Below, piece by piece: positions 1 through 15,173 of a stretch of DNA of 64,000 nt (positions are counted from its first letter, which is position 1; each line of letters opens with the position of its first letter). The translations under genes and the position numbers were made by a program. Below the pieces are notes generated by a model, which saw only the letters and a list, made by a program, of their open reading frames with translations, was not told the DNA's origin and ran no database searches. Source of the stretch: an uncultured Elusimicrobiales bacterium. Lineage in GTDB: Bacteria; Elusimicrobiota; Elusimicrobia; Elusimicrobiales; Elusimicrobiaceae. The DNA is taken from contig CALUXB010000002.1 in the NCBI GenBank assembly GCA_944324645.1, positions 62,001 to 126,000 of the forward strand. Direction: 5' to 3'.

Positions 1-444
1 TAACCACGCCGTACGCAATATCACAGCTGTTTGGGCGTGTTTTAAAACAGCTTCCTCTCCTAAACGTTTTGTTTTCCCATACACTCCCAGCGGATGGGCC
101 GGAGCCGTTTCATCCAACGGAGTGTTACTGCTTCCGTCAAACACATAATCGGTGGAAATATGTATGAGAGGAATGCTGCGGGCAGCAGCCAATTTGGCTA
201 AATTAGCCGGGCCGACGGCATTGATTTGATAGGCTAAATCCGGCTCTTCTTCAGCTTTATCCACATTGGTATAGGCTGCGCAATTAATGATGGCTTTCAA
301 TTCCTTGTCTTGTCCATACGCAAAAACTGCCTTCTCATCTGTAATATCCAAGTCAGACACATCAGTATAAAAGGCCGCGCCTGCAGGCAAAATATCGCGC
401 AGACAGCAGCCCAATTGCCCGTTGGCACCGGTAATTAGAAACAT
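1..444 (-). CDS. rfbD: dTDP-4-dehydrorhamnose reductase, N-terminal 148 codons (cut by window edge)
   Basis: This enzyme reduces dTDP-4-dehydro-L-rhamnose to dTDP-L-rhamnose with NAD(P)H, the last step of the rhamnose donor pathway in the cytoplasm. The translated start [12 protein letters not shown] is the nucleotide-binding glycine motif of an extended short-chain dehydrogenase. Further along HISTDYVFDG is the family's signature with the catalytic-region Thr/Asp, and YGKTK is the YxxxK catalytic pair. The ATG at 442-444 lies inside the end of rfbC (10-nt overlap), so the genes are translationally coupled. The C-terminal half lies outside the window. Confidence 0.93.
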   Translation of the reverse strand, partial: MFLITGANGQLGCCLRDILPAGAAFYTDVSDLDITDEKAVFAYGQDKELKAIINCAAYTNVDKAEEEPDLAYQINAVGPANLAKLAAARSIPLIHISTDYVFDGSSNTPLDETAPAHPLGVYGKTKRLGEEAVLKHAQTAVILRTAWL

Positions 445-989
445 GGGTTCTCCTTATACGCAGCAAAAGAGCCGTTTTGTAAATCTTTATCAGATAAAAT
501 AGCATTGGAAAGATCTATTTTCCAATCAATATGCAAGACAGCATCATCAAAGCGGATAGCTCCCTCAGAGGCTTTGTCATAAAAATTATCACATTTATAA
601 GCAAACTTAGCCGTGGGGGTCAACACGGCAAAGCCGTGTGCAAAACCGCGTGGAATGAAAAATTGTTTTTTATTTTCAGCAGACAATTCCACCCCGAACC
701 ATTGCCCAAAAGTAGGGCTCTGGCGACGCAAATCCACCGCCACATCCCACACAGCCCCCTCCAATACGCGCACCAGTTTTGCTTGGGCAAAAGGAGGTTT
801 TTGAAAATGCAAGCCACGCAATGTATTCTGAGAAGAAAAGGACTCGTTATCCTGAACAAAATCTATACACAAGCCCGCCCTTTCCAATGTTCGTTTATTA
901 TAAGACTCATAAAAATACCCCCTCTTATCCGCAAAAACTTGGGGGATTAACACGCAAAGCCCCTCTATAGGGGTATTAAAAAAATCCAT
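435..989 (-). CDS. rfbC: dTDP-4-dehydrorhamnose 3,5-epimerase
   Basis: RmlC epimerises C3 and C5 of dTDP-4-dehydro-6-deoxyglucose before RfbD acts. The 184-residue cupin matches the usual family length. LRGLHFQ near residues 57-63 carries the catalytic His, followed by DVAVDLR and the Tyr-containing [10 protein letters not shown] segment. I chose ATG at 987-989 because GGAGG (999-1003) lies 9 nt upstream; the ATG at 996-998 abuts that box, and a longer frame to 1028 would run deep into rfbA. The start overlaps the 3' end of rfbA by 14 nt, so rfbA-rfbC-rfbD form one overlapping operon. Confidence 0.95.
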
Positions 990-1860
990 TTTTTTCATCC
1001 TCCGGTATGTGCAATAAATAGGCCCCATATTCCGTGTTTTTCATCAAGTTGGCACGGCGTGCCAGCTGGGCAGCGTCTATCCAGCCGTTTTTATAGGCGA
1101 TTGCTTCTAAACAAGCGATTTTAAGGCCTTGTCGGCTTTCTAAAGCTTCAATGAAAACAGAGGCTTTGATTAAATCAGAGTGGGTGCCTGTATCCAGCCA
1201 AGCCATTCCCCGGCCCATTAATTCTACGGAAAGCTCCCCCTGTTTTAAATACCATTCATTGACAGAAGTGATTTCTAATTCTCCGCGGGCGGAAGGTTTT
1301 AAATGTTTTGCAATATTTACCACTCTGTTATCATAAAAATAAAGCCCCGTTACAGCCCAGCTGGATTTGGGCACTTGTGGTTTTTCCTCAATAGAAATAG
1401 CTTTTTTCTGATTATCTATTTCCACCACGCCATAAGCGCTTGGATTTTTGACGTGATAAGCAAAAACGGTCGCCCCGCTGGAACGGGCAGCTGCCTCTTG
1501 CACCAATTTTTTCAAATCCCGTCCATAAAAAATATTGTCTCCTAAAATCAAACAAACACTATCCTGCCCGATAAAATCCGCTCCTAAAATAAACGCTTGG
1601 GCTAATCCTTCCGGCTTGGGTTGTTCTACATATGAAAAATGCACGCCATACTCTTCCCCACTGCCCAACAAGGCCTTATAAAGGGGTAAATCTTTAGGGG
1701 TGGATATAATCAAAATATCCCGTATGCCAGCCAACATAAGAACCGACAATGGATAAAAAATCATCGGCTTATCATAGACAGGAATTAACTGTTTAGATAC
1801 GGCAAAAGTGGCCGGATACAAACGGCTGCCGGTTCCACCTGCCAAAACAATTCCCTTCAT
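976..1860 (-). CDS. rfbA: Glucose-1-phosphate thymidylyltransferase
   Basis: RmlA couples dTTP and glucose-1-phosphate to dTDP-glucose, the first step towards dTDP-rhamnose. The 294-residue protein has the nucleotidyltransferase signature GGTGSRLYP near residue 8, [13 protein letters not shown] (the substrate and phosphate-binding loop), LGDNIFYG with the metal-binding Asp near 110, EEKP near 160, and WLDTGTH near 220. Length and motif order are normal for the family. It is upstream of rfbC and rfbD on the minus strand and follows the glycosyltransferase gene after 46 nt. rfbB lies divergently about 1.3 kb away. Confidence 0.97.
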
Positions 1861-1906
1861 ATATTTCTCCTTTTATATTGCACTGCCTTTTCCCAAGAAA
1901 CAAACT

Positions 1907-2896
1907 TTATCTAAACCAATATACAAAATAACACGCGTAATAAGGCAGCCACGCATCTTTTACTATCCGCGCAAGGCGGCAAACAATCCAAAGCCGCATC
2001 CTTTTAAAAAAGCAACAGTACTGCCGCTGTTTTTCTACCGTATCAAAAGCCTGGCGGCATAAATTTGCCCATTTATAAGAAGCAGGCAAAGAAAACTTCC
2101 TAATTCTTTTTACAGCATCAAGCGTTAAATCTACTATCCGGCCATAAAATGCCGGCTCCGTCAAATTTCTGCGAGCTAATTCTTGGCAAAGAAAAATCAT
2201 ATTCTCCAATATGCCATATGCTTCCAACGCTTTACCCGAAGACAAGGACTGGCTGTTTCCGATGCGATACAGATACAGATGCTGTGAGGTGAAAACAATA
2301 TTGCCGGCATATTGGTAAAGTAAGACTTCAAAAGGGAAATCTTCTGCTCTAGCGTTGGGCCGGAACATCAGTTCATTGGCTCTGATTAATGAAGTTTTAA
2401 TCAATTTTAGCCACACTTGCCTATCGTCAAGCGCAGCCTGCAGACGCTGCGTGGCGGAAGCATTTGGGACTGTGCGCAAAAAACCTTTACAATGGGTTTC
2501 ACAGGCAAATTGTTCCCCGCTATTGATATCCTGCGCAATAAACAGACCACGCACGATATCGGCATCCTTTTCTACAGCCTGGCTGTATAAATGTTCTAAA
2601 TAAGTAGGAAATATAATATCATCTGCGTCCACAAAAGCTATATATTGCCCTTGAGCTTTCTGCAACAACAAATTGCGGTTTTGAGCGGCACCAATATTGG
2701 AAGATTGTAAGAAGATTTTAATCCGTTTGTCTTTGCGGCTGTAGTCCTGCAGGATAGACACACTATGGTCCGAAGAAGCATCATCCGCGCAAAGTAATTC
2801 AAAATCTGTATATGTTTGGGCCAAAATACTGTCTATACAAGCAGGCAAAAACCGCTCTGCATTATATACAGGAACCAAGACGCTGATTTTAGGCAT
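1907..2896 (-). CDS. Family 2 glycosyltransferase
   Basis: This is a 329-residue GT-A fold glycosyltransferase, probably adding a sugar to a surface polysaccharide on the cytoplasmic side of the membrane. The start is typical GT2 (ISVLVPVYNAERFL), followed by CADDASSD and the DxD-type metal/nucleotide-sugar site FVDADD near residue 95. The C-terminal part is basic and aromatic and shows no clear membrane span, though it may associate with the membrane. A GGAAGGG box precedes the ATG. It is the first gene of the minus-strand set that continues into rfbA. The sugar specificity cannot be read from sequence. Confidence 0.9.
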   Translation of the reverse strand: MPKISVLVPVYNAERFLPACIDSILAQTYTDFELLCADDASSDHSVSILQDYSRKDKRIKIFLQSSNIGAAQNRNLLLQKAQGQYIAFVDADDIIFPTYLEHLYSQAVEKDADIVRGLFIAQDINSGEQFACETHCKGFLRTVPNASATQRLQAALDDRQVWLKLIKTSLIRANELMFRPNARAEDFPFEVLLYQYAGNIVFTSQHLYLYRIGNSQSLSSGKALEAYGILENMIFLCQELARRNLTEPAFYGRIVDLTLDAVKRIRKFSLPASYKWANLCRQAFDTVEKQRQYCCFFKRMRLWIVCRLARIVKDAWLPYYACYFVYWFR

Positions 2897-3132
2897 TTAC
2901 AACCCTTCCTTCTTCTTTAATATTTATTGGGCTTAACTTGTCTTAATTATGACAAATTTTTATTTCATATACAAACTACCTGCGCTTGGAAAGGACCCAA
3001 CCAATAACAGAGCCTCTCCCAGCTAACAGTAATGCCTTGTTTCTGTAAGTAATTTTTGCCATAATATAAAACATATAAAAAGCAACCAGGCAACCATTGG
3101 ATTTGGCAAATAGGATCCCCGTGCGGTTGCTA

Positions 3133-3159
3133 TAGACAATGCGCTAATCGCTTTATACT
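3133..3159 (+). promoter_or_regulatory. Possible rfbB promoter
   Basis: TAGACA (3133-3138) and TATACT (3154-3159) are spaced 15 nt apart, with an AGGAAG ribosome site just before the rfbB ATG. The spacer is short, so this is only a candidate. The 280-nt divergent gap (2897-3176) is AT-rich and shows nothing else recognisable. Confidence 0.33.
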
Positions 3160-3176
3160 TAGTTTAGGAAGAGAAT

Positions 3177-4199
3177 ATGCCCAATACAACCATTTTAGTA
3201 ACAGGAGGGGCCGGTTTTATCGGCTCCAACTTTATTCCCTATTTTTTAGAAGTTTTTCCGCATTATCACTTATTGAATTTAGATAAGCTGACATACGCCG
3301 GCAACTTGAACAATTTAAAAGAATGCGCAGACCACCCCCGTTACACTTTTATACAAGGCGATATTTGTGATGCCGAATTAGTAAGTCGTCTTTTTACTCA
3401 ATATGATATCCGCGGGGTCTTCCATTTTGCCGCCGAATCCCACGTAGATAATTCTATTTCAGGGCCTCTTCCCTTCATTAAAACAAACATAGAAGGCACT
3501 TTTTCCCTTTTGGAAGCAGCACGCAAACATTGGATGCTCGCTCCGGGGCAGATGAAGCCTGGATATGAAAATTGCAGATTTCACCATATTTCTACCGATG
3601 AAGTATATGGCACTTTGGGAGAAACGGGTCTGTTTAGTGAAAAAACCGCCTACGCGCCCAATTCCCCCTATTCAGCCTCTAAGGCCTCTAGTGATTTTTT
3701 AGTCCGGGCTTACCACCACACATATGGTCTCAATACAACTACCAGCAATTGTTCAAACAACTATGGTCCCAAACAACACGCGGAAAAATTAATTCCCACC
3801 ATTATCCGCAAAGCATTGTCCGGGCAGTCTATCCCTATTTACGGTGACGGGAAAAACGTGCGCGATTGGCTGTATGTGCTGGATCATTGCAAAGGCATCG
3901 CTTTGGTATGGCAAAAAGGCCGCGCTGGAGAAACATATAATATTGGCGGCCATAATGAACGCAATAATTTACAAATTGTAGAAACGATTTGCGGCCTTCT
4001 GGATGAACTCCGCCCCGCAGCTACTGGAAAGCCTTACAAAGAATTGGTAACGTTTGTTAAAGACCGCGCCGGGCACGACCGACGCTATGCCATAGATGCC
4101 ACTAAACTGGAGCAGCAATTGGGCTGGAAAGCGCAGGAAACCTTTGAAACAGGTATGCGCAAAACGGTAGAGTGGTATTTGCAACAACAAGTAAAATAA
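3177..4199 (+). CDS. rfbB: dTDP-glucose 4,6-dehydratase
   Basis: RmlB converts dTDP-glucose to dTDP-4-dehydro-6-deoxyglucose, linking RfbA to RfbC. The 340-residue protein has the Rossmann motif TGGAGFIG (residues 9-16), the AAESHVD motif near 85, STDEVYG with the catalytic Asp-Glu pair (139-145), and YSASK (165-169) with the catalytic Tyr and Lys. It is complete and of normal length. It is transcribed away from rfbACD, so the pathway is split over two divergent units. The next gene starts 2 nt after its stop. Confidence 0.97.
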   Translation: MPNTTILVTGGAGFIGSNFIPYFLEVFPHYHLLNLDKLTYAGNLNNLKECADHPRYTFIQGDICDAELVSRLFTQYDIRGVFHFAAESHVDNSISGPLPFIKTNIEGTFSLLEAARKHWMLAPGQMKPGYENCRFHHISTDEVYGTLGETGLFSEKTAYAPNSPYSASKASSDFLVRAYHHTYGLNTTTSNCSNNYGPKQHAEKLIPTIIRKALSGQSIPIYGDGKNVRDWLYVLDHCKGIALVWQKGRAGETYNIGGHNERNNLQIVETICGLLDELRPAATGKPYKELVTFVKDRAGHDRRYAIDATKLEQQLGWKAQETFETGMRKTVEWYLQQQVK

Positions 4200-4201
4200 T
4201 T

Positions 4202-5209
4202 ATGAACATTTGCGTCAGCTCAACTATTAATTGGAATCCAGGCGATGAATTTATCCGCTATGGCGTAATTAATCTATTAAAAAAATTATTAGGAAAAGAG
4301 CATAACTATTTCATTTGGAATCGCAATCCAGATTTTTTTGAAAAAGCCTGGCAAAAAGATTCTATGAAAGAAGAGTTTTGGTCTAATTCTGTGCACCCTG
4401 CGGATTTAGCCTGGATGGATGCGTTTGTCTTTGCCGGAACCCCCGAATGGTTTGGCAACCCAACATATCCTATTTACGCAGAAGCGTTAAAAAACAAAAA
4501 ACCGCTTATTTTGTTGGGCGCCGGAGCTGGACGGCCTTTAGATTTAATGTCCTCTCTGGAAAAACAGGTCTTGCGCTCCCCCAAAACATTTCTGTGCGTG
4601 CGCAGCATCGGTTTAGCGGAAGAGCTAAAAAAGATAGACATTTCGGCCCATACTTTGCCCTGCCCAGCCATCCTGTGCCAAACCAACGACTACAATAACA
4701 AAGAACAAACCGGGCGGATTGGTTTTTTACTGCAAACTTCATCTGTGCTCAATCAACAGTCTGACTTGCGCTTTGCTCAGGATTTCTTTCGGCTGCCACC
4801 TCAAAGAAATTATATCTTACTGGCTTCATATATAGACGAAGCCCGGGAAAATTGTAAGAAACAGGTTCCGTTTCGCTTTAGTTTTGAGCCGAAAGATTAT
4901 TTTGATTTTTATAAAGAATGCGATTGGATTGTCACTACGCGCTTGCACGGGGCGCTTTCTTCTTTGGCTTGCGGCGTACCGGCTGTTTTATTGGCCGATA
5001 CATCTAATGTACGGATACAAAGTTCCGCCGCGCTGTATAAGGAGATCTTGCCTGTAGCAACCTCTTTAAAGGACGGCTTGCAAATTGTGCAGGAACTGTC
5101 CGGCAAGCAATATATTGCCTTGCGCCAAAATATACTACAATTTAAGAAAGATTTGGAAGCACAATATATTCATCTTCTCAGAGATTTTTTACATTCTATT
5201 GGTTTGTAA
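4202..5209 (+). CDS. Polysaccharide pyruvyl transferase family protein
   Basis: This 335-residue protein resembles the polysaccharide pyruvyl-transferase fold, whose members add pyruvate ketals to exopolysaccharide sugars or act as related glycosyltransferase-like enzymes. The N-terminus (INWNPGDEFIRYG) is the typical NxGD-type opening. The C-terminus has the family signature TTRLHGALSSLACGVPAV followed by a short Asn/Arg segment. The ATG at 4202 is preferred over an in-frame codon at 4172 inside rfbB; it lies 2 nt after the rfbB stop. Its stop overlaps the next ATG (TAATG). Transfer of pyruvate itself is a family-level inference. Confidence 0.78.
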   Translation: MNICVSSTINWNPGDEFIRYGVINLLKKLLGKEHNYFIWNRNPDFFEKAWQKDSMKEEFWSNSVHPADLAWMDAFVFAGTPEWFGNPTYPIYAEALKNKKPLILLGAGAGRPLDLMSSLEKQVLRSPKTFLCVRSIGLAEELKKIDISAHTLPCPAILCQTNDYNNKEQTGRIGFLLQTSSVLNQQSDLRFAQDFFRLPPQRNYILLASYIDEARENCKKQVPFRFSFEPKDYFDFYKECDWIVTTRLHGALSSLACGVPAVLLADTSNVRIQSSAALYKEILPVATSLKDGLQIVQELSGKQYIALRQNILQFKKDLEAQYIHLLRDFLHSIGL

Positions 5210-7395
5210 TGAAAATACAACACTTAATTTTGGACATCAAATTATTTACTTATAGACTGGCCAAACATATAGCCCCGGCTAAATTTACGCCCAAATATAA
5301 CCGCAACTATATCAAACGCCATTTACCCTCTAAAACAGTATATACCTTTCTATCTCACCGCGAAGAAAACCAAGACTTCTCCGCCTTACATACAGATATA
5401 AAACTAATGGCCTATTATTTGCCACAGTTTCATACCTTTCCAGAAAATGATGAATGGTGGGGAAAAGGATTTACAGAATGGTGCAACACACGCCCGGCAC
5501 AGCCACTCATTGCAGGGCACTATCAACCCCGGCAACCTCATAAAGATATTGGATACTATGATTTATCCGATGTGAATGTGATGGCTAAGCAGGCCGCTTT
5601 AGCCAAACAACACGGCATTTATGGTTTTTGTATGTATTATTATTGGTTTTCTGGCAAAAAATTGATGGAAAAACCGCTGGATAACCTTATGAAACACCCT
5701 GAAATAGACTTCCCTTTCTGTCTATGTTGGGCCAATGAAAGCTGGTCCCGCCGCTGGAACGGAAGCGAAAAGTTAGTATTGATTAAACAACAATACCGCG
5801 AGCAGGATCCTCTGCTGTTTATACAAGATATTGCCCCTTATTTGAAAGATAAACGCTATATACGTGTTAACCAAAAACCTATTATTTTGATTTATAACAT
5901 CCAGCAACTCCCCAATCCCCAACAAGCCTTCCAAACTTGGCGTGAATGGTGCCGCCAAAACGGAATAGGTGAAATAGAAATATGGGCCGTACGCTCTTTT
6001 TTAAAAAAATATTCCCAATCATTTGCTGATTTAGTTGACAAAGAGGTGGAATTCCCTCCACATTTGGTTACGCCGGATTGGATTTTAGAAAGAATCCAAG
6101 ATAAAGACAGTTTATGGATTGATTACCAAGTTATCTCTTCTGGCGTATTGCACCCACAAACTGCGGAGCCTCTCCCAGACGACAAAAAACCTATTATCCG
6201 TGCCGCTATGTTAGGCTGGGACAATACAGCCCGCTACAAAAAAAAGGGTGCCCATATATATAACCACTTTTCTCTTTTTGCTTATTACCAATGGCTGCGT
6301 TACTTAATTAGTTATACACGTAAGAAAATGCCCAAAGAAGAACGTTTTCTGTTTGTAAATGCCTGGAATGAATGGGCCGAAGGAACCTATTTGGAGCCAG
6401 ACCGCAAATATGCTTATGCTAATATTAACGTTACTTCCCGCGCAATATTTGATTTGCCCTTTGAGCCGGTTCTAAAAGATAATGCCGTCATTATTGCCTG
6501 TTTAGAAAGTTTAGGCGATATTATCGCTTGTGAACCTGTTATACAATCTGTTCAAGAAAAATACCCCGGCAGACCGATTTATTGGGCGCTTTCCGTGCAA
6601 TATGCAGACGTCTTGCAAGCCCATCCCGCTTTAGCAGGGATTTTGCCTTTTTATACTATGCAACAATGGCAAAATTTTAAAAACAATCTGCCGCCCTCTA
6701 TTGCGGTTGTAGATTTACATTTTCAAACCCGGCATTATCTTTTAGCTAATACGGCAACTTATACCGTGGCCTATAATCACAACCGCTCCGATATTACAGA
6801 GGAAAACTATTATACTTGCGGGAACAGTCTGTTAGATATTTTCTCCAAAGTGGCAGGGCTTGCTTCTACCAATGAGGCCCCCCATTTCTATATTGCCCCT
6901 TTTGCACAAAAACCTGCCAATTTGCCCAAACGCTATATTGCCGCGCACACACAGGCCTTCATTATAGATCGCAATTGGGATAAAAGCAAATGGGAAATTT
7001 TGATAAAAGAGCTGGCCAAAGATAATATTGCGGTGGTGGAAATTGGACAAAACAGCTTGCTTAAAGGCCTGCCCGGCTGCACAGACTGCACCAATTTACC
7101 CTCTATTCACGACACAGCAACCGTTTTGGCAGGAGCTGAGCTTTTTGTAGGGATAGATTCCTCTATGGCCCATTTGGCAAATGCTTTAAATATTCCGGGG
7201 GTTATCCTTCTGGGGAAATATCGTAATTTTACCCATTATATGCCTTATTCAGGCAAATACCAAGACGGTACAAATGCAATCGTCTTATATGCCCCTAAAG
7301 ATAAGCCTGCTGCAGAGATTTCTGTTTCTCAAGTTTATCAGTCTATTTGCCAAATGCTGCAGCGCAAATCCAAGCATATTGAAACAAATGCTTAA
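5209..7395 (+). CDS. Two-domain protein: WbsX-like domain fused to a GT9 heptosyltransferase-like domain
   Basis: This 728-residue protein appears to combine two carbohydrate-active modules. Residues about 65-420 match the WbsX/GH99-like family found in O-antigen and capsule loci: AYYLPQFHTFPEND, WWGKGFTEWCN, FCMYYYWFSGKK, CWANESWSRRW and NAWNEWAEGTYLEPD. Residues about 430-720 resemble glycosyltransferase family 9 (ADP-heptose type), with LESLGDIIACEPVIQ at the start and VGIDSSMAHLANAL near 645, the usual GT9 donor-site region. There is no signal peptide, so it should act in the cytoplasm. It overlaps the preceding gene by 1 nt. gmhA at 48593 implies that heptose is made in this organism. 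Confidence 0.82.
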   Translation: MKIQHLILDIKLFTYRLAKHIAPAKFTPKYNRNYIKRHLPSKTVYTFLSHREENQDFSALHTDIKLMAYYLPQFHTFPENDEWWGKGFTEWCNTRPAQPLIAGHYQPRQPHKDIGYYDLSDVNVMAKQAALAKQHGIYGFCMYYYWFSGKKLMEKPLDNLMKHPEIDFPFCLCWANESWSRRWNGSEKLVLIKQQYREQDPLLFIQDIAPYLKDKRYIRVNQKPIILIYNIQQLPNPQQAFQTWREWCRQNGIGEIEIWAVRSFLKKYSQSFADLVDKEVEFPPHLVTPDWILERIQDKDSLWIDYQVISSGVLHPQTAEPLPDDKKPIIRAAMLGWDNTARYKKKGAHIYNHFSLFAYYQWLRYLISYTRKKMPKEERFLFVNAWNEWAEGTYLEPDRKYAYANINVTSRAIFDLPFEPVLKDNAVIIACLESLGDIIACEPVIQSVQEKYPGRPIYWALSVQYADVLQAHPALAGILPFYTMQQWQNFKNNLPPSIAVVDLHFQTRHYLLANTATYTVAYNHNRSDITEENYYTCGNSLLDIFSKVAGLASTNEAPHFYIAPFAQKPANLPKRYIAAHTQAFIIDRNWDKSKWEILIKELAKDNIAVVEIGQNSLLKGLPGCTDCTNLPSIHDTATVLAGAELFVGIDSSMAHLANALNIPGVILLGKYRNFTHYMPYSGKYQDGTNAIVLYAPKDKPAAEISVSQVYQSICQMLQRKSKHIETNA

Positions 7396-8571: not shown

Positions 8572-8600
8572 TGGACAAAAAGCCTCTTTTATGCTATAAT
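8572..8600 (+). promoter_or_regulatory. Strong sigma-70-type promoter
   Basis: TGGACA (8572-8577), a 17-nt spacer and TATAAT (8595-8600) preceded by an extended TGC give the best consensus promoter in the window. No convincing gene starts nearby, so it should drive the structured transcript below, from about 8607. Confidence 0.75.
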
Positions 8601-8606
8601 TTTATT

Positions 8607-8929
8607 ATAGAAAGGATAAAAAGACGTAAAAATGTCGTTTTTATCCTATTTTTAAAATAACGTTATTTGAAGGAAGATGGATAATGTTACTATCAATCTA
8701 CCAATTCCTAGGAAAAAAGAACCGCTTGCGCCGTTCCAAAAGCTGGTGAAAACAGAGGGGATTGGGTCTTCCGGAAAATACCGTATAGATCCATATAGAG
8801 TGTACGAGGGACAAGCCCGACGACTACACAGCAACCTGCCTAAGGGTAAGGTGCTAATGCTTGCACGATGGGAACTACAACCGCTTTGCTGTAAGTAGAA
8901 CCCATTGGAGACGATGGGTTCTTTTTTTT
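8607..8929 (+). ncRNA. Structured leader RNA or small RNA of unknown class
   Basis: Downstream of a near-consensus promoter, about 320 nt are rich in complementary segments and end in an intrinsic terminator. I see a 5' hairpin (8614-8625 with 8634-8646, one bulge). A long-range helix pairs CTACACAGCA (8824-8833) with TGCTGT-AA-GTAG (8887-8898). It encloses ACCT/AGGT (8834-8837 with 8848-8851) and GTGC/GCAC (8851-8854 with 8863-8866). ATGGG occurs at 8868-8872 and again in the 3' arm of the terminator, so the first copy could pair with CCCAT (8901-8905) as an antiterminator. A 73-codon frame (8677-8898) starting MDNVTINLPIP also fits, but its rare-codon use (AGA, CGA, CTA) is unlike the neighbours. 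I cannot assign a known family. Confidence 0.45.
8898..8929 (+). terminator. Intrinsic terminator 1 of the structured RNA
   Basis: GAACCCAT (8898-8905) pairs with ATGGGTTC (8914-8921) across an 8-nt loop, followed by eight T (8922-8929). The 5' G overlaps the upstream long-range helix, so the two structures compete at their edge. Confidence 0.85.
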
Positions 8930-8933
8930 ACCA

Positions 8934-8969
8934 CCTCTCTAATGGAACTGTCCAAAAGAGAGGTTTTTT
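8934..8969 (+). terminator. Second tandem terminator-like hairpin
   Basis: CCTCTCT (8934-8940) pairs with AGAGAGG (8957-8963), followed by TTTTTT (8964-8969). The 16-nt loop makes it weaker than the terminator just upstream. Together they insulate or attenuate the ClpX-like gene. Confidence 0.6.
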
Positions 8970-9110
8970 GGCAAAGAAAACATACCCCCAACAAGACCAT
9001 TTTACCCCGCCCAGCGCGTGTGGGTGGCAGAAGAGGGACGTTTGCCTAAAGAAGAACCTTTGCAGGAAGAGTTTGGCTATAACGATTGGGGCATTTATCC
9101 CGGTGCATAA
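8943..9110 (+). pseudogene. Possible C-terminal gene remnant without a start codon
   Basis: One frame is open for 55 codons between a TAA at 8940 and a TAA at 9108. It contains no ATG, and the only in-frame GTG or TTG starts (e.g. GTG 9018) lack a ribosome site. The last 30 codons read like real protein (RVWVAEEGRLPKEEPLQEEF, then an aromatic Gly/Pro end) with codon use like the neighbours. It ends 10 nt before the ClpX-like ATG, as an operon neighbour would. It could be the tail of a decayed upstream gene or chance. Confidence 0.3.
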
Positions 9111-9120
9111 GGAAAGAAAT

Positions 9121-10488
9121 ATGAAAACAACAGATCAAGATACAAGCATTAAAAAATATACTTCCCGCACGGAATTGATTGAGCAATTAACCCGTTGGCA
9201 CGCCAAATGCGGCGTGGCAATACGCCAAGCCGAGTGTGTGGAACTGTTTAAAGAAATTTGCGCCCGGCTGAAAAAAACCAATGGCAAAAAAGTGCCTATG
9301 GCTGCCTTGGTGCAAGAGTATAACTTAAACGACACAGAACTGTTTTTGCTGTTGTTTTTGGCCACCTCGCAGTTATTGCGGCTTGTTACGCCATCTACTT
9401 GCAAAGCAACCGCCTTGCTGCAAACGGCCCAAACATTTGCATCTTCCAAAGAGGTATTGGAAACTCTTTTTGACGGCAAAAGCGTGCTTTTTAGCAAGAA
9501 GATTTTAGTTCTATCCGGCGGATTGGTAGATATCAAGAAAAATCCGCTTTTGGCTCCACCGCTCCAAACAGACCGCCCCACCCGACGCACCTTCAACGCC
9601 CGGCGCGTGCTGGCTGAGTTAAATAAATATGTTATCGGGCAGGAGGAAGCCAAAAAGCAGTTGGTGGCAGGCATCTTTGAACATTTGGCCAAATGTGCCC
9701 AAAGCCCCAATATTCCTTTTACCAAAAACAACATTTTTATCAGCGGACCGACGGGCTGCGGAAAAACGTATTTATGCCAGTCTTTAGCGCGCATTTTAAA
9801 AATCCCGTTTGTTCACGCGGACGCTTCCCAATACACGCAGACAGGTTATACCGGTATGAGCGTAGGCAATATTTTACAGCCGCTGCAAGCTTTGGCAAAA
9901 GGCAGGAAACTGCCGCTTTCTATCGTGTTTATTGACGAAATTGACAAACTGCGCGAAGGGAGCGAGCGCTGGGGCGTTTCATCGGGGAATGTTCAGGCGG
10001 AACTGCTGCGTATGATAGAAAGCAGGCTCTTTATTACAGAAGACCCCCTCTCCCACAAAACAGATGAGTGGGACCTTTCCAAAGTGCTCTTTGCAGTAGG
10101 CGGCGCTTTTGAAAAATTGCAGGTAAAACACGCGGATAAATCCGTCGGATTTACTCCGGCCGGCACCGTGCGCAAAGAAGCCCTGTCTGCCGATGATTAC
10201 ATTGACTATGGAATGCTGCCGGAATTTATGGGCCGCTTCTCATATTTTGTACAGTTGCGTCCGTTGGCTAAAGAAGATTTGCGCCAAATTTTGCTCAACC
10301 CCTACAACGGGCCCATCAGCCAATATGAAAAGCTCCTGCATACTTCTGCCGCTATTGGTCAGGAACTGGTGGAACAAATAGTCAACCAAGCCTATGAGCG
10401 GCGTTTGGGGGCGCGAGGGCTTCACCAGCAGGTGGGAATGCTGTTTCAAGAGCAATTTTTACAGCAAACCGTAAAGGTGTGTTTATAG
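9121..10488 (+). CDS. ClpX-like AAA+ unfoldase with a non-zinc N-terminal domain
   Basis: This 455-residue AAA+ ATPase is probably a hexameric protein unfoldase. From residue 160 on it follows ClpX closely: GPTGCGKT (Walker A, 209-216), pore loop GYTG (242-245), IVFIDEID (Walker B, 268-275), LPEFMGRF with the arginine finger (366-373) and GARGL (sensor 2, 430-434). SVGF at 341-344 sits where ClpX carries its ClpP-docking IGF loop, so ClpP binding is plausible. The N-terminal 150 residues lack the ClpX four-Cys zinc domain and instead form a helical, Leu-rich domain (ELFLLLFLATSQLL at 73-86). ATG 9121 has an upstream AAGGAAAG; an in-frame TTG at 8905 lies inside the terminator and is rejected. 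The next gene follows after 9 nt. Confidence 0.85.
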   Translation: MKTTDQDTSIKKYTSRTELIEQLTRWHAKCGVAIRQAECVELFKEICARLKKTNGKKVPMAALVQEYNLNDTELFLLLFLATSQLLRLVTPSTCKATALLQTAQTFASSKEVLETLFDGKSVLFSKKILVLSGGLVDIKKNPLLAPPLQTDRPTRRTFNARRVLAELNKYVIGQEEAKKQLVAGIFEHLAKCAQSPNIPFTKNNIFISGPTGCGKTYLCQSLARILKIPFVHADASQYTQTGYTGMSVGNILQPLQALAKGRKLPLSIVFIDEIDKLREGSERWGVSSGNVQAELLRMIESRLFITEDPLSHKTDEWDLSKVLFAVGGAFEKLQVKHADKSVGFTPAGTVRKEALSADDYIDYGMLPEFMGRFSYFVQLRPLAKEDLRQILLNPYNGPISQYEKLLHTSAAIGQELVEQIVNQAYERRLGARGLHQQVGMLFQEQFLQQTVKVCL

Positions 10489-10497
10489 GAGGAAGTT

Positions 10498-11010
10498 ATG
10501 AATGTATATGCTCAAATCGTGCAGTTTTTTGACCAATTGGAGCAACAGCGCCGGGCGGTGTTAAACCGTTTGCCGGTAAAAGGGTATGCCAGTACGCAGC
10601 AGTTATACCAAGCGTGCACCCAATGGATAAATTTAGAGCGCGGCCCGTTTTACAGAAACGGCTACAAGGAGCATTTTGAAAACATTTGCGCCAATCTGCG
10701 CCACCCGGACAGCCAGCACTTGGCCCTGGCCTTTTTTGCCAAGCTGAATAATTTAAGCAATATGCAGTTGTTTTTGCTAATTCGGTTGCTGACGGTAACG
10801 GTTCAGGGCAATTGCTTGTGGGACAACCTGTTGGAAACCTACACGGACCGAGCCCAAGCTTTGTTTTCGGAAAAAGACTGGCAAAGCATTTTCCACCCCG
10901 TGCAGGACACTTATACACTGGGTAATGTGCTGCAATACAACCAACGGACGGTCTGTTTAATGCGGCCGCATTTGCATATCAAACAATTTTTGGGAGTTCT
11001 TCCCAAATAA
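10498..11010 (+). CDS. Small protein resembling the N-domain of the preceding ClpX-like protein
   Basis: I do not recognise a named family for this 170-residue protein. It starts 9 nt after the ClpX-like gene with a perfect GGAGG site, so the two are co-transcribed. Its middle (residues 55-115: ENICANLRH, then NLSNMQLFLLIRLLTVTV) resembles residues 42-90 of the ClpX-like protein (KEICARLKK, NLNDTELFLLLFLATSQL) in spacing and hydrophobic pattern. A sensible inference is that it is an adaptor, inhibitor or substrate-handling partner built from the same domain. It has no signal peptide or membrane span and no catalytic motif that I can see. Confidence 0.7.
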   Translation: MNVYAQIVQFFDQLEQQRRAVLNRLPVKGYASTQQLYQACTQWINLERGPFYRNGYKEHFENICANLRHPDSQHLALAFFAKLNNLSNMQLFLLIRLLTVTVQGNCLWDNLLETYTDRAQALFSEKDWQSIFHPVQDTYTLGNVLQYNQRTVCLMRPHLHIKQFLGVLPK

Positions 11011-11352: not shown

Positions 11353-13515
11353 TTAGGAGCTTTTTGTTAAAGAAGCAGATAATAAATTGTTATTCTGCAA
11401 ATAAGCCTGCAGGAGCTCTATTCTGTTTTCAACGTCAACGCCTTCACTATTTTGCTTGATAGGAAGAATGTGCACCAAACTTCCGTCGCTTTGATAATGC
11501 TCGTACCGGTCATTTTGGCTCTCAATATAATCGTCATCGCGCAACAAAATTCTTCTGCCATACGATGCCCGGGACAGTTCCTTAGGAGCGGCTATTTTAA
11601 GATAGGGGTTATATGAATTTTCAGACAGTTCTTTCTCCGTTTTCATTACCACAAACATATAAGGGTTTTGTTCTGCATTTGCATTATAGAATTTGCCGGA
11701 GCCCGCTCTAAACTCTGGATATTTGACATAGTAGTAATTAAAAGGGAACTCTTTTTTTTCTTCACAAGCGGAAAGATAGGCGTTGATTATTTGCTCTAAA
11801 AACAGGTTGTCAAAGCTTTCCCCTTCCTGTTTCTGATTTAACAAACTGTGCAAACAGTGCAACGTATTTTCAAAATATGCATTTTTGCCCCGGTGGAACA
11901 ATCTTTTCCAGGAGAGAGGCTGAGCAGAAGCATATTGATAGCGCACATCGTTTTCCTTTTGGCAATAATTGCCCATAGTCATCAAGGCGCAATTTACTTT
12001 ATCCAAATCGCATTGAAACAGGGATTGAAAGCGCTTAAGATAGAACAGATTATTCATCCCAATAATAGCCGTTTGACCATAAAGCAGGGGATGATTTTCC
12101 AGCTCAAAGAGTGCACCGGCGCTATGGGGCTGTTCTTGCAAAAATAGCCGTTTTTTTTCTTCCTCGTCCAGTTGGAATCTATTAAAAGTCTTTCCCCGCT
12201 GTTCGTTGATTTGACCGGTCAAGATAATATGCCGTACCTGCTCCAGCATCTTGCACATAGGATTATTGTCTTTTCTGATGGCAATTTCGTCTTCAGAGTT
12301 TCGTATTAAATTGTTGATAATTCGTATGCGTCTGTAAAAATCAGCCTCATTTACTGTATTTCTATTTAACAGGTATATGATTACCGCATATAAAAAGATG
12401 CTCTTTCCTAACGTAAAAACCTTGTTATTTAGGCAATCTCCCAAAACATCTATATCGTAGTTATCTGCTACGACAATCTTTTGTTTCTCGCATTTTTTAG
12501 TTATAAAAGAGCTAAAAAAGTCATAAGGCGTTGCGGTTTCTTTACTAAAAACAACTTGCCAACAATCAAAATATTTTTCAAGGGTTTTAATATGGGTGCT
12601 GTCGGAAAAAAACTGCAACAAGGTGTCAAAATCAGGCGCCAGCTCCGCCGGTTCCCCTTGTTCGTAAGATATGATATGGTAGAGAAAGCGAATGTAATTT
12701 AGGAATCGCTCATCTACCTGGCAGTCGTCTTGTTTGGCGTAAATCCAGATTAAGTCTGTCCATTCATTATCAAATTTATTGATAATAGCCTCCACCTCCT
12801 GTCTAGGCAGGGCTGCTTTTTTGAGCAAGTTTGATTCCAACTCCGCTTTTAACAATTCAAAATTTGTAAGCGGCTTTCCGCGGGAGTTCATTTTGATATA
12901 TATATCATCGCTAAACCCCATTGTTATATCCATAAAATAGAATTGGATTAATTTTTTATTTAACAGTTTATCCCAAATATGCTCTATTCCTTTAAAATGC
13001 TCGTTTATAGCATCCAGCATTCTCAGCACAGATTCTATAGTGGGATCTTTCTTCCAGTTTAGAGGGAACCAAGATTGGTTGATGATATCTTGGCTAATAT
13101 CTTCTTGAAAAGAAGGCGAAAATGCTATCAGCTCTTCAAAAAACTCTCTTGCGCTCGGCCGGGTTTCATATGTAAATCGCGCAAGAAAAGCACAGGCATC
13201 TGGGGCTATATTTTCTTTTTTGGCCGCATACCAATGCAGCAGGAATAACGTGGTAAGACGTTGCTGTCCGTCCAGCAGAGTCCTTACGTTATTTTCCACA
13301 TTGCCATAAATAAAATCCAATATAAGTGGTTTTTCCTCTGTTAGAGCCGCCGCCAATACTTTTAAAAATTCCGTTCTTTTTTTACTTTCTGATTTTCTGC
13401 CTTGGGCATAATCACGCTGGATTTTGGGAATGACAATATACTGCTCTTTGTCAAGAATTTCCACAAAAGAGCAAAGATGTCCTTCTTTATAGTCTTTTTC
13501 CGTTTCGTTTTCCAT
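11353..13515 (-). CDS. DUF262 protein A (GmrS/ParB-like nuclease-fold domain, 720 aa)
   Basis: DUF262 is the ParB/Srx-like NTP-hydrolysing and DNA-acting domain of GmrSD, BrxU and SspE, which restrict modified phage DNA. The N-terminus has both conserved signatures: IQRDYAQGR (residues 32-40) and LDGQQRLTTL (81-90), the nucleotide-binding motif. About 600 further residues are helical and include FELENHPLLYGQTA near 480, seen in other long DUF262 proteins. I see no clear HNH motif. Its ATG overlaps the stop of protein B by 1 nt (TAATG), so they are translated together and probably function together. A GGAGAA site precedes the start. Confidence 0.82.
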   Translation of the reverse strand: MENETEKDYKEGHLCSFVEILDKEQYIVIPKIQRDYAQGRKSESKKRTEFLKVLAAALTEEKPLILDFIYGNVENNVRTLLDGQQRLTTLFLLHWYAAKKENIAPDACAFLARFTYETRPSAREFFEELIAFSPSFQEDISQDIINQSWFPLNWKKDPTIESVLRMLDAINEHFKGIEHIWDKLLNKKLIQFYFMDITMGFSDDIYIKMNSRGKPLTNFELLKAELESNLLKKAALPRQEVEAIINKFDNEWTDLIWIYAKQDDCQVDERFLNYIRFLYHIISYEQGEPAELAPDFDTLLQFFSDSTHIKTLEKYFDCWQVVFSKETATPYDFFSSFITKKCEKQKIVVADNYDIDVLGDCLNNKVFTLGKSIFLYAVIIYLLNRNTVNEADFYRRIRIINNLIRNSEDEIAIRKDNNPMCKMLEQVRHIILTGQINEQRGKTFNRFQLDEEEKKRLFLQEQPHSAGALFELENHPLLYGQTAIIGMNNLFYLKRFQSLFQCDLDKVNCALMTMGNYCQKENDVRYQYASAQPLSWKRLFHRGKNAYFENTLHCLHSLLNQKQEGESFDNLFLEQIINAYLSACEEKKEFPFNYYYVKYPEFRAGSGKFYNANAEQNPYMFVVMKTEKELSENSYNPYLKIAAPKELSRASYGRRILLRDDDYIESQNDRYEHYQSDGSLVHILPIKQNSEGVDVENRIELLQAYLQNNNLLSASLTKSS

Positions 13516-15173
13516 TAGTTATTCTCCTGCAGATAAGGGGCCAAAATCTTTCTGATTTCTTCCATATAGGCCGTCCGATCCGCTTCGCCCCAGAAATGAA
13601 GCTGGTTTTTATCAGAGGGGGTATAAGACTTCAAAAATACCATTCGGGTACAAAAAGGGATAAAATCCCCCCGCCGGTCCATTTTTATAATTTCATCACG
13701 TTTTACGGAAAAAACAGCGTTACTTAGGGCAATATTATTCTCATTTTTCAATAAAGCAAGGTTCTTTATGGAGTTTATATATTCTTTATTTGCATCATCT
13801 TTACTAGACAGCTTGGCTATCACTTTCTCTTGCAAGTACTTGAAAGTCTTGCCATTGATGTTGGGCATAGCTTCATCTATCTCCTGAAGCAGTTCACTTT
13901 GGCTGTCAATTTTAGCAATTGATTCTTTATGCAGCTTTAGCCACTCTTTCCAATGTTCCTGTTTGGTTAGTCCCTCTGATTTACGGGCGTGTATATGTTC
14001 CAGTGTCCAATCACAATTTTTATACTTAAAAAAAGGGAACCGCTGCTCTTCTTTAAAAGCGTGAATGCTTTCCACATTAAACAAAAGCAAAATCCGTTTC
14101 AGCAAATCAGCGTCCCGCTCATAGTCCAAGTCTTCCAGGTTATAACCGGCCTTTTGGGAAATGCTTTTTCTGATAAGCCCCGCAAGCGCGGCCTTAAATT
14201 CTTTTTTTGTTTTATTTTCTTTTTCTTGGAATATACGGGCAAGAGTGCTCTCTTTGGAGGCTATAAGATAACCGATTTTATGGTACAACTCTTTATCCTC
14301 ATACCAATCTTTTAAGTGAAGAAACGCTTTTTGAATAATAGACCAAAGCTCCTTTACCGTTTTGCCTTCTTTTATTTTTGTATTGAAATAAAAAAATGTA
14401 AAGTAACGCTCTTTGGTGTTTTCTTTTTTTTGCGCAATCAAATCCAAGATAAGATCTACCCGGGTGGGATACTCTGAGTCTTTTTCTTTAGATACATTCG
14501 TTAAAAACAACCAAAAAGACTCATTATGCAAGTCCTTCTCCATCGCATCCCATTGGAGAGCAATTTCATCTTTTTGTTTCTCTTCGGAATTTCTAATAAA
14601 AAGGGCCTTTACCAGTTCCGAGCTTGTAAGGTAAATTTTATCTTTATTTAAACGTTTAAACAGGGCCACGGGGTCTTCGTTTAAATCAATTTCATACCAA
14701 ATTACGCTTACATAGCGTAAATATTCAAATATTTTTTGTACGCGTAAAGTAATATCCTTTGAAAACCAGTTTTTAATTATTTTATAAGCTTCCGCCATAA
14801 AATAAAAATCAATGTTTTCATTGCTGCAAGAATCAGCATTAATACTTTCTAAAAATTCTTCCGATTTTTTTCTGTTTTGATAGGAAAGTTTAAAAGCGGG
14901 TTCTGGACAAAAAGCAGGAACCGTATTGTGCATATACTTATAAATAAGATACAGGGTGGTCAGCCTTTGCTGGCCGTCAACCAGTTCATAGAAATCTTCC
15001 CTCTTTTTAATCACAATGGGCTGCAGACAATAGTTTTTTTCCCCATTTTCAAAGATATCATCTAACATCACCTCTATTTCTTCTTTACCCCAACGGTAGC
15101 CACGTTGATAAGAAGGAACGAGAAAAATTCCCTTTATTTTATTGATTTCTTTGAGACTGATTTTATTATTCAT
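13515..15173 (-). CDS. DUF262-DUF1524 protein B (GmrSD-like, 552 aa)
   Basis: This is a probable nucleotide-dependent endonuclease of the type IV restriction kind. The DUF262 part shows YQRGYRWG (residues 22-29) and VDGQQRLTTLY (65-75). The C-terminal DUF1524 (HNH-like) part has WTLEHIHAR (389-397), whose His pair is the usual metal site. This is followed by NLALLKNENNIALSN and a Lys/Arg-rich end, which are also family-typical. It is the first gene of a two-gene operon. Two full DUF262 proteins in tandem differ from classic GmrSD (one S and one D domain). No dnd, ssp or brx genes lie in the window. Confidence 0.85.
   Translation of the reverse strand: MNNKISLKEINKIKGIFLVPSYQRGYRWGKEEIEVMLDDIFENGEKNYCLQPIVIKKREDFYELVDGQQRLTTLYLIYKYMHNTVPAFCPEPAFKLSYQNRKKSEEFLESINADSCSNENIDFYFMAEAYKIIKNWFSKDITLRVQKIFEYLRYVSVIWYEIDLNEDPVALFKRLNKDKIYLTSSELVKALFIRNSEEKQKDEIALQWDAMEKDLHNESFWLFLTNVSKEKDSEYPTRVDLILDLIAQKKENTKERYFTFFYFNTKIKEGKTVKELWSIIQKAFLHLKDWYEDKELYHKIGYLIASKESTLARIFQEKENKTKKEFKAALAGLIRKSISQKAGYNLEDLDYERDADLLKRILLLFNVESIHAFKEEQRFPFFKYKNCDWTLEHIHARKSEGLTKQEHWKEWLKLHKESIAKIDSQSELLQEIDEAMPNINGKTFKYLQEKVIAKLSSKDDANKEYINSIKNLALLKNENNIALSNAVFSVKRDEIIKMDRRGDFIPFCTRMVFLKSYTPSDKNQLHFWGEADRTAYMEEIRKILAPYLQENN

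Follow-up and report, generated by a model that had tools for sequence, protein, structure and literature searches.

Defence operons governed by WYL-type regulators, of the BrxR/CapW type, are known, and S-adenosylmethionine (SAM) riboswitches are a textbook case of control over methionine metabolism. SAM binding makes riboswitches of the SAM-I class terminate transcription (PMC8603990). The SAM lyase of phage T3 depletes SAM and thereby defeats type I restriction-modification (RM), and bacteriophage exclusion (BREX) is likewise inhibited by SAM depletion (PMC11109961, PMC11842806). During restriction alleviation of EcoKI, HsdR is degraded by ClpXP (PMC11109961). Here, we describe a locus in a window of 64,000 nucleotides (C2:62001-126000 of G000, the 1.5 Mb genome of a gut Elusimicrobiales bacterium) in which a leader RNA, almost certainly a SAM-I riboswitch, precedes the genes of a ClpX-like ATPase and of a small protein that shares homology with the N-domain of this ATPase. 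The reading that we favour, and consider rather more probable than its opposite, is a mobile proteolysis module of the ClpXP type, induced by SAM depletion and residing in defence islands.

The leader was assigned by Rfam to the SAM-I (S-box) family RF00162. Its aptamer has a P1 helix (8790-8794/8868-8872) and a pseudoknot in which CAAG (8812-8815) pairs with CUUG (8860-8863). RF00162 also scored above the gathering threshold, at the same position, in all five genomes of the genus that have the ClpX-like gene; these five had been picked by protein search alone, and the result is hence independent of the RNA. The nucleotides that we take to be the SAM contacts of the published structure are retained in the alignment to the consensus. 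The original prediction had presented the leader as a new, attenuator-like RNA, and this was rejected because Rfam identifies SAM-I and because conservation tracks RNA pairing; the same grounds led us to discard a 73-amino-acid protein-coding open reading frame (ORF) at 8677-8898. The accompanying expectation that the module is regulated is borne out by a SAM-I riboswitch with a conserved OFF-type platform.

The antiterminator shares sequence with both of the structures that it excludes, as CGAUGGG includes the 3' strand of P1 and CCCAUUG is part of the terminator's 5' arm. It was found in 41 of 44 leaders, and over 42 distinct leaders pairing was kept at 85% in P1, 87% in the antiterminator and 94% in the terminator. 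In all three elements double changes exceeded all 500 shuffles, and pairing collapsed when the partners were slid. One column triplet changes from C-G-C to U-A-U, preserving the P1 and antiterminator pairs alike, and the pseudoknot covaries from CAAG/CUUG to CGAG/CUCG. The invariance of P2 and of the core was partly imposed by the search pattern, and we drew no inference from either. Since SAM-I riboswitches terminate on SAM, the switch at 8788-8874 should be ON at low SAM; judging from its architecture this direction is quite likely, and the aptamer would be expected to bind SAM.

The RNA is structured as originally predicted, but only one intrinsic terminator was found where two in tandem had been proposed; it is followed by a hairpin that holds a Shine-Dalgarno sequence. 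In relatives the 3' arm of this second hairpin, AGAGAGGU, is the Shine-Dalgarno sequence of a small ORF whose ATG lies 6-8 nucleotides further on, which is why we rejected the hairpin as merely a second terminator; it may also terminate. The mean hairpin score over 40 leaders was 12.15, compared with 8.0 for shuffled sequences, and the stem covaries (ACCUCUCU/AGAGAGGU, UAUACUCC/GGAGUAUA and GCUCC/GGAGC). Ahead of ClpX-like genes the small leader ORF encodes 41-50 amino acids with a conserved end, FGYNDWDIYHG(A); in G019 it is interrupted by a stop codon.

The larger protein is very probably a ClpX-type unfoldase. The motifs on which it had first been called ClpX-like all align with ClpX, namely Walker A (GPTGCGKT), Walker B (FIDEID), the pore loop (GYTG), EFMGR with the GR arginine-finger segment, sensor 2 (GARGL) and a VGF tripeptide at the position of the ClpP-docking IGF of ClpX. 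All members keep Walker A/B, the pore loop, the arginine-finger segment, sensor 2 and [V/I]GF. ClpXP structures were the top Foldseek matches (E 2e-20), and docking on ClpP would be expected. Its scores lie under both equivalog cut-offs (197 vs 359 bits for NF003745 and 168.6 vs 370.75 for TIGR00382); given the 197 bits against a cut-off of 359, we regard it as ClpX-like in its working and not as a ClpX equivalog.

The N-domain had been described as a new helical domain in place of the zinc domain. Loss of the zinc domain stands, as no Cys4 motif was found on alignment to the canonical zinc-domain ClpX of viral contigs (these viral matches are uninformative on the N-domain itself), and the N-domain is not a zinc domain. 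The claim that it is wholly new is not supported: the winged-helix domain (WHD) family PF22977 gave sub-threshold matches in 9 of 18 members (5/12 accessory proteins and 4/6 of f2, a second family of the order), with a best E of 1e-4 and, for the window protein, 17.7 bits against a gathering threshold of 27. The N-domains match almost nothing else, and from this weak resemblance we take the domain to be a probable winged-helix variant.

The small protein is almost certainly homologous to the N-domain of the ATPase, in keeping with the original description of it as this domain alone, 9 nucleotides downstream. Its residues 26-99 align with residues 9-82 of the N-domain (hhalign 96.6%, E 5e-10; phmmer E down to 1e-7). 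Its AlphaFold model is mostly helical (pLDDT, a per-residue confidence score, 82), the five models being divergent, and Foldseek returned no match at E<0.001 for a model with a shallow alignment behind it. Its gene and that of the ClpX-like protein are neighbours at 9 of 15 loci. In G017 the small gene stands alone behind a SAM leader, with no ClpX-like match in that genome, and the protein would therefore be more than an adaptor of the ATPase, whatever role it may have beside it. A possible third relative in the N-domain family is a protein of 183-204 amino acids with a helical, N-domain-like sequence, encoded beside a deiminase and a DUF2779 gene (L041:10742-11353 and L042:4194-4742).

No canonical ClpX scored above the cut-off in 61 genomes (37 of the genus and 24 relatives in the order). 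Canonical ClpP is near universal in them, and its gene is present in the window genome. The ClpX-like gene is accessory, occurring in 5 of the 37 genus genomes, each time preceded by the SAM leader in the equivalent position. It is the only ClpX of the window genome, a finding that the original prediction had set against itself together with a small gene not conserved alongside; the objection is half borne out, as the small gene is conserved in the loci given above, but no genome of the genus has canonical ClpX, and most have no ClpX of either kind. Full operons of relatives also hold a 165-amino-acid membrane protein, a TPR membrane protein of about 530 amino acids and others. In the f2 family, ClpX-like genes encode the same kind of N-domain, and no SAM riboswitch was found at these loci. 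These WHD-ClpX proteins (L045-L050) have 505-565 amino acids and are sometimes encoded beside WYL, DUF2779 and tiny WD40-blade-like proteins.

Table 1. Features of the locus, with positions counted from the first letter of the window.
Feature	Position	Strand	Remarks
WYL-type helix-turn-helix (HTH) transcription regulator, 267 aa	7686..8489	+	directly upstream of promoter
Sigma-70-like promoter, TGGACA-17-TATAAT, extended -10	8572..8600	+	consensus match 11/12
SAM-I (S-box) riboswitch aptamer	8788..8874	+	Rfam RF00162, 55 bits vs gathering 44.4
Predicted antiterminator, CGAUGGG 8866-8872 with CCCAUUG 8901-8907	8866..8907	+	fold z -3.9; excludes P1 and terminator
Predicted intrinsic terminator of the riboswitch, 11-bp stem (8897-8922) + U8	8897..8929	+	terminator-containing stretch z -3.2
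Second hairpin (stem 8933-8964), U-run after	8933..8969	+	z -4.7; 3' arm AGAGAGGU
Leader-ORF remnant, conserved C-terminus FGYNDWDIYHGA	8967..9113	+	frame open, ATG lost in window genome
Predicted ClpX-like AAA+ unfoldase, 455 aa	9121..10488	+	N-domain ~1-145, ClpX core ~160-448
Small protein, 170 aa, N-domain homologue	10498..11010	+	starts 9 nt after ClpX-like ORF
TPR/membrane protein gene remnant, C-terminal 34 aa	11109..11228	+	65% over 34 aa, E 2e-11, to L042:11260-12933
GmrSD/DUF262 gene pair, convergent	11353..13515 and 13515..15173	-	neighbour, no conserved module part

The near-consensus promoter was confirmed (Table 1) and is kept in G019 and G028. The regulator just upstream has a clear HTH_11 match and resembles the WYL entry of PADLOC (E 2.6e-17), WYL itself being under the Pfam cut-off; as the original prediction had it, this gene belongs to the neighbourhood; of the 14 loci with leader and ClpX-like gene, 10 have it immediately upstream in the same orientation. 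The DUF262 (GmrSD) genes noted downstream are present, on the opposite, convergent strand, but are not a conserved partner, adjoining the ClpX-like gene in only 2 of 14 loci (G000 and G028) and in differing arrangements. A full TPR gene follows the module in relatives, of which the window keeps the remnant only. Just upstream of the WYL gene, positions 435-7395 hold a polysaccharide cluster (dTDP-sugar synthesis genes and glycosyltransferases, including a WbsX-like one).

The leader is not confined to the ClpX-like gene. A 38-nucleotide pattern retrieved 46 loci in GTDB genomes (Elusimicrobiales, Clostridia and Gastranaerophilales/Cyanobacteria), some of whose phylum labels could be blurred by contamination of metagenome-assembled genomes, and one viral contig. 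Scores with RF00162 are 45-65 bits. Their sporadic occurrence over three phyla indicates mobility, and the leader/ClpX-like module is, judged by this distribution, horizontally mobile. The ORFs behind the leaders vary, from the ORF of 41-50 amino acids with a ClpX-like gene to a lone small N-domain protein and several small uncharacterized families. No methionine or SAM gene was seen beside the SAM riboswitches of the genus, the neighbours being accessory genes.

Several of the other leader genes recur. A DnaA-like protein of about 300 amino acids, whose Walker A is degenerate (YNSFIIxGDxxGG) and whose C-terminus bears a zinc motif, possibly a pseudo-initiator, is found in several Elusimicrobiales behind or just downstream of a SAM leader (L135:511-1425, L139:507-1514, L143:2043-3065, L156:4222-5121 and L189). 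Genes for N-formylglutamate amidohydrolase (PF05013) lie behind or within SAM-leader operons in Clostridia and Elusimicrobiales alike (L154 and L187, both Clostridia, and L156:5126-5848, L174, L227 and L231). In Gastranaerophilales, the leader precedes genes of a protein family whose members start with MEQQ and have otherwise divergent bodies (L150, L155, L157, L158, L169, L181, L184 and L190), and one MEQQ-type leader locus is on an IMG/VR viral contig.

The defence-island neighbourhood that had been suspected is supported by an enrichment of leaders beside RM and defence genes. Type III mod/res genes lie 184 bp upstream of the leader of the ClpX operon in G072, and in G067 the order is Eco57I-type gene, WYL and ClpX operon. 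A C5-methyltransferase with HNH lies 43 bp upstream of the leader in G015, HsdR-like and GmrSD genes 64 bp upstream in G027, and HsdR 1.2 kb away in G034. Further neighbours are GmrSD with two N6_N4 methyltransferases (G078), type III genes (G083), SNF2/PLD (G079) and GmrSD again in G000 and G028; G000 also has a type I system. DUF4007/PAPS-reductase clusters lie near leaders in G091 and, somewhat further off, in G061; at L243 and L254 these genes are BREX type 4/Dnd-like, and at L254 the leader gene is followed by a Mu-type transposase.

Of the 46 leaders, 4 had GmrSD within 10 kb, where 0.3 would be expected (P 3e-4), and 5 had GmrSD or N6_Mtase, with 0.9 expected (P 0.002); N6_Mtase proximity alone was not significant (2 against 0.6, P 0.12). 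A methyltransferase motif screen was positive in 6 of 45 leader windows and 0 of 40 controls, nearly all of the latter drawn from the same contigs as the leaders (P 0.02). Pfam tallies within 3 kb of leaders hold ResIII, SWI2_SNF2, GmrSD_N and N6_N4_Mtase, which do not occur among the 25 listed families of the 124 control proteins; single-member families are unlisted for the controls, and the G072 mod gene, just beyond 3 kb, was added by hand. In PADLOC the module proteins match no described anti-phage system, with generic AAA and WYL matches only. Our searches of a literature collection returned nothing relevant on SAM riboswitches with phage defence, RM or Elusimicrobia, nor on ClpX with Elusimicrobia.

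The proteolysis module that we favour draws on sequence comparison for the riboswitch and its switch architecture, the ClpX core, the homology between N-domain and small protein, the mobility and the RM/defence enrichment. With ample SAM, the aptamer would hold P1, the terminator would form and the operon would be off. At low SAM, the 3' strand of P1 would pair with the 5' arm of the terminator and RNA polymerase would read on, after which the second hairpin would control how the leader ORF is translated. Expression of the operon would yield a hexameric ClpX-type unfoldase docking on housekeeping ClpP via VGF, the winged-helix-like N-domain would select substrates, and the free copy of this domain could be an adaptor or a competitor. 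The WYL regulator would provide a second input. An unfoldase that sits behind a SAM-OFF switch and next to SAM-dependent systems points to either backup immunity or restriction alleviation. The purpose would most readily be tied to SAM-dependent DNA modification, as backup defence against SAM-destroying phage or as a means to clear restriction enzymes once self-methylation fails, and we give a link to DNA modification or defence about even chances.

Several observations weigh against this reading. The ClpX RKH loop is missing from the ATPase, and substrate handling should thus differ. Unrelated genes are also leader-driven (pseudo-DnaA-like, N-formylglutamate amidohydrolase and small uncharacterized ones), and the function of the ClpX-like protein therefore need not concern methylation. 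In the f2 family the ClpX-like gene sometimes has WYL directly upstream (L047 and L048) without a SAM riboswitch, so that WYL and ClpX appear to have been paired before the riboswitch came in. HsdR and the ClpX-like gene show no clear co-occurrence, the carriers G015 and G019 showing no HsdR. RM proximity is an association, and may reflect that leaders and RM genes both reside in variable islands. Finally, the window copy may be partly decayed, with its leader-ORF ATG lost and its TPR gene deleted.

As to purpose, SAM-cleaving phages that disable RM or BREX might thereby induce the leader-driven effectors, with the unfoldase degrading phage or host factors. Phages with SAM lyase exist and block both systems (PMC11109961, PMC11842806), the leaders are over-represented both next to diverse RM/defence genes and in mobile elements, and WYL regulators of the kind matched in PADLOC are frequent in defence loci. 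However, the effectors match no known defence system and presence in 5 of 37 genomes limits the statistics; such a guard role is possible, if somewhat doubtful. Its extension to a SAM-depletion-triggered immunity across phyla, in which mobile SAM-I cassettes of defence islands carry diverse effectors (WHD-ClpX, pseudo-DnaA and small proteins) triggered by phage or failed methylation, is put forward tentatively.

If low SAM instead leaves new self DNA unmethylated, the induced unfoldase and ClpP could remove restriction enzymes. The ClpXP route is established for EcoKI (PMC11109961), the host is without canonical ClpX, and RM genes are at hand in G072, G067 and G000. This alleviation is nonetheless unlikely, given the carriers that show no HsdR, GmrSD neighbours that need no SAM, the absence of any ClpX from most genus members whether RM genes are present or not, and other leader-driven genes that are no unfoldases. 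We think it equally unlikely that SAM merely reports methionine supply and that gut bacteria gained the module as a common starvation protease: SAM-I riboswitches classically report SAM/methionine status and metK is present, but the SAM riboswitches of the genus lie beside accessory genes and their distribution is sporadic and mobile. That the leader is a SAM-I relative sensing another ligand, as the unusual gene associations and a P2 sequence fixed over three phyla (though partly imposed by the search pattern) might hint, is improbable in view of the RF00162 scores and the retained presumed SAM contacts.

Under the proteolysis reading, bacteria without ClpX would gain a conditional ClpXP-type protease. 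One SAM riboswitch subtype appears to have become a mobile sensor on accessory genes in at least three phyla, frequently next to SAM-dependent restriction systems. If SAM depletion is the signal, a metabolite riboswitch would be linked to phage counter-defence by SAM lyase or to the control of self-restriction.

Compared with described systems, the module shares with EcoKI restriction alleviation a ClpX-type unfoldase with ClpP and, in several genomes, a place beside SAM-dependent restriction systems, whereas EcoKI uses housekeeping ClpX and the state of the substrate, with no SAM riboswitch. Like BrxR/CapW-type operons it has a WYL-type HTH gene directly upstream; unlike them, it would have a riboswitch as second input, and its effectors match no known defence system. 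The ATPase has the AAA+ module of ClpX with Walker A/B, the GYxG pore loop, arginine finger, sensor 2 and [V/I]GF, but differs in lacking the zinc N-domain and the RKH loop, in its WHD-like N-domain and in being accessory and riboswitch-controlled. Compared with PF22977 WHD, which it matches under the gathering threshold, the N-domain differs in being fused to a ClpX core and also free-standing in the 170-amino-acid protein. The leader has the aptamer fold, pseudoknot and P1/antiterminator/terminator OFF logic of SAM-I (RF00162), yet it governs genes of the accessory and defence-island kind, not methionine/SAM genes, adds a second hairpin that buries the Shine-Dalgarno sequence, and forms a strongly conserved subtype across three phyla.

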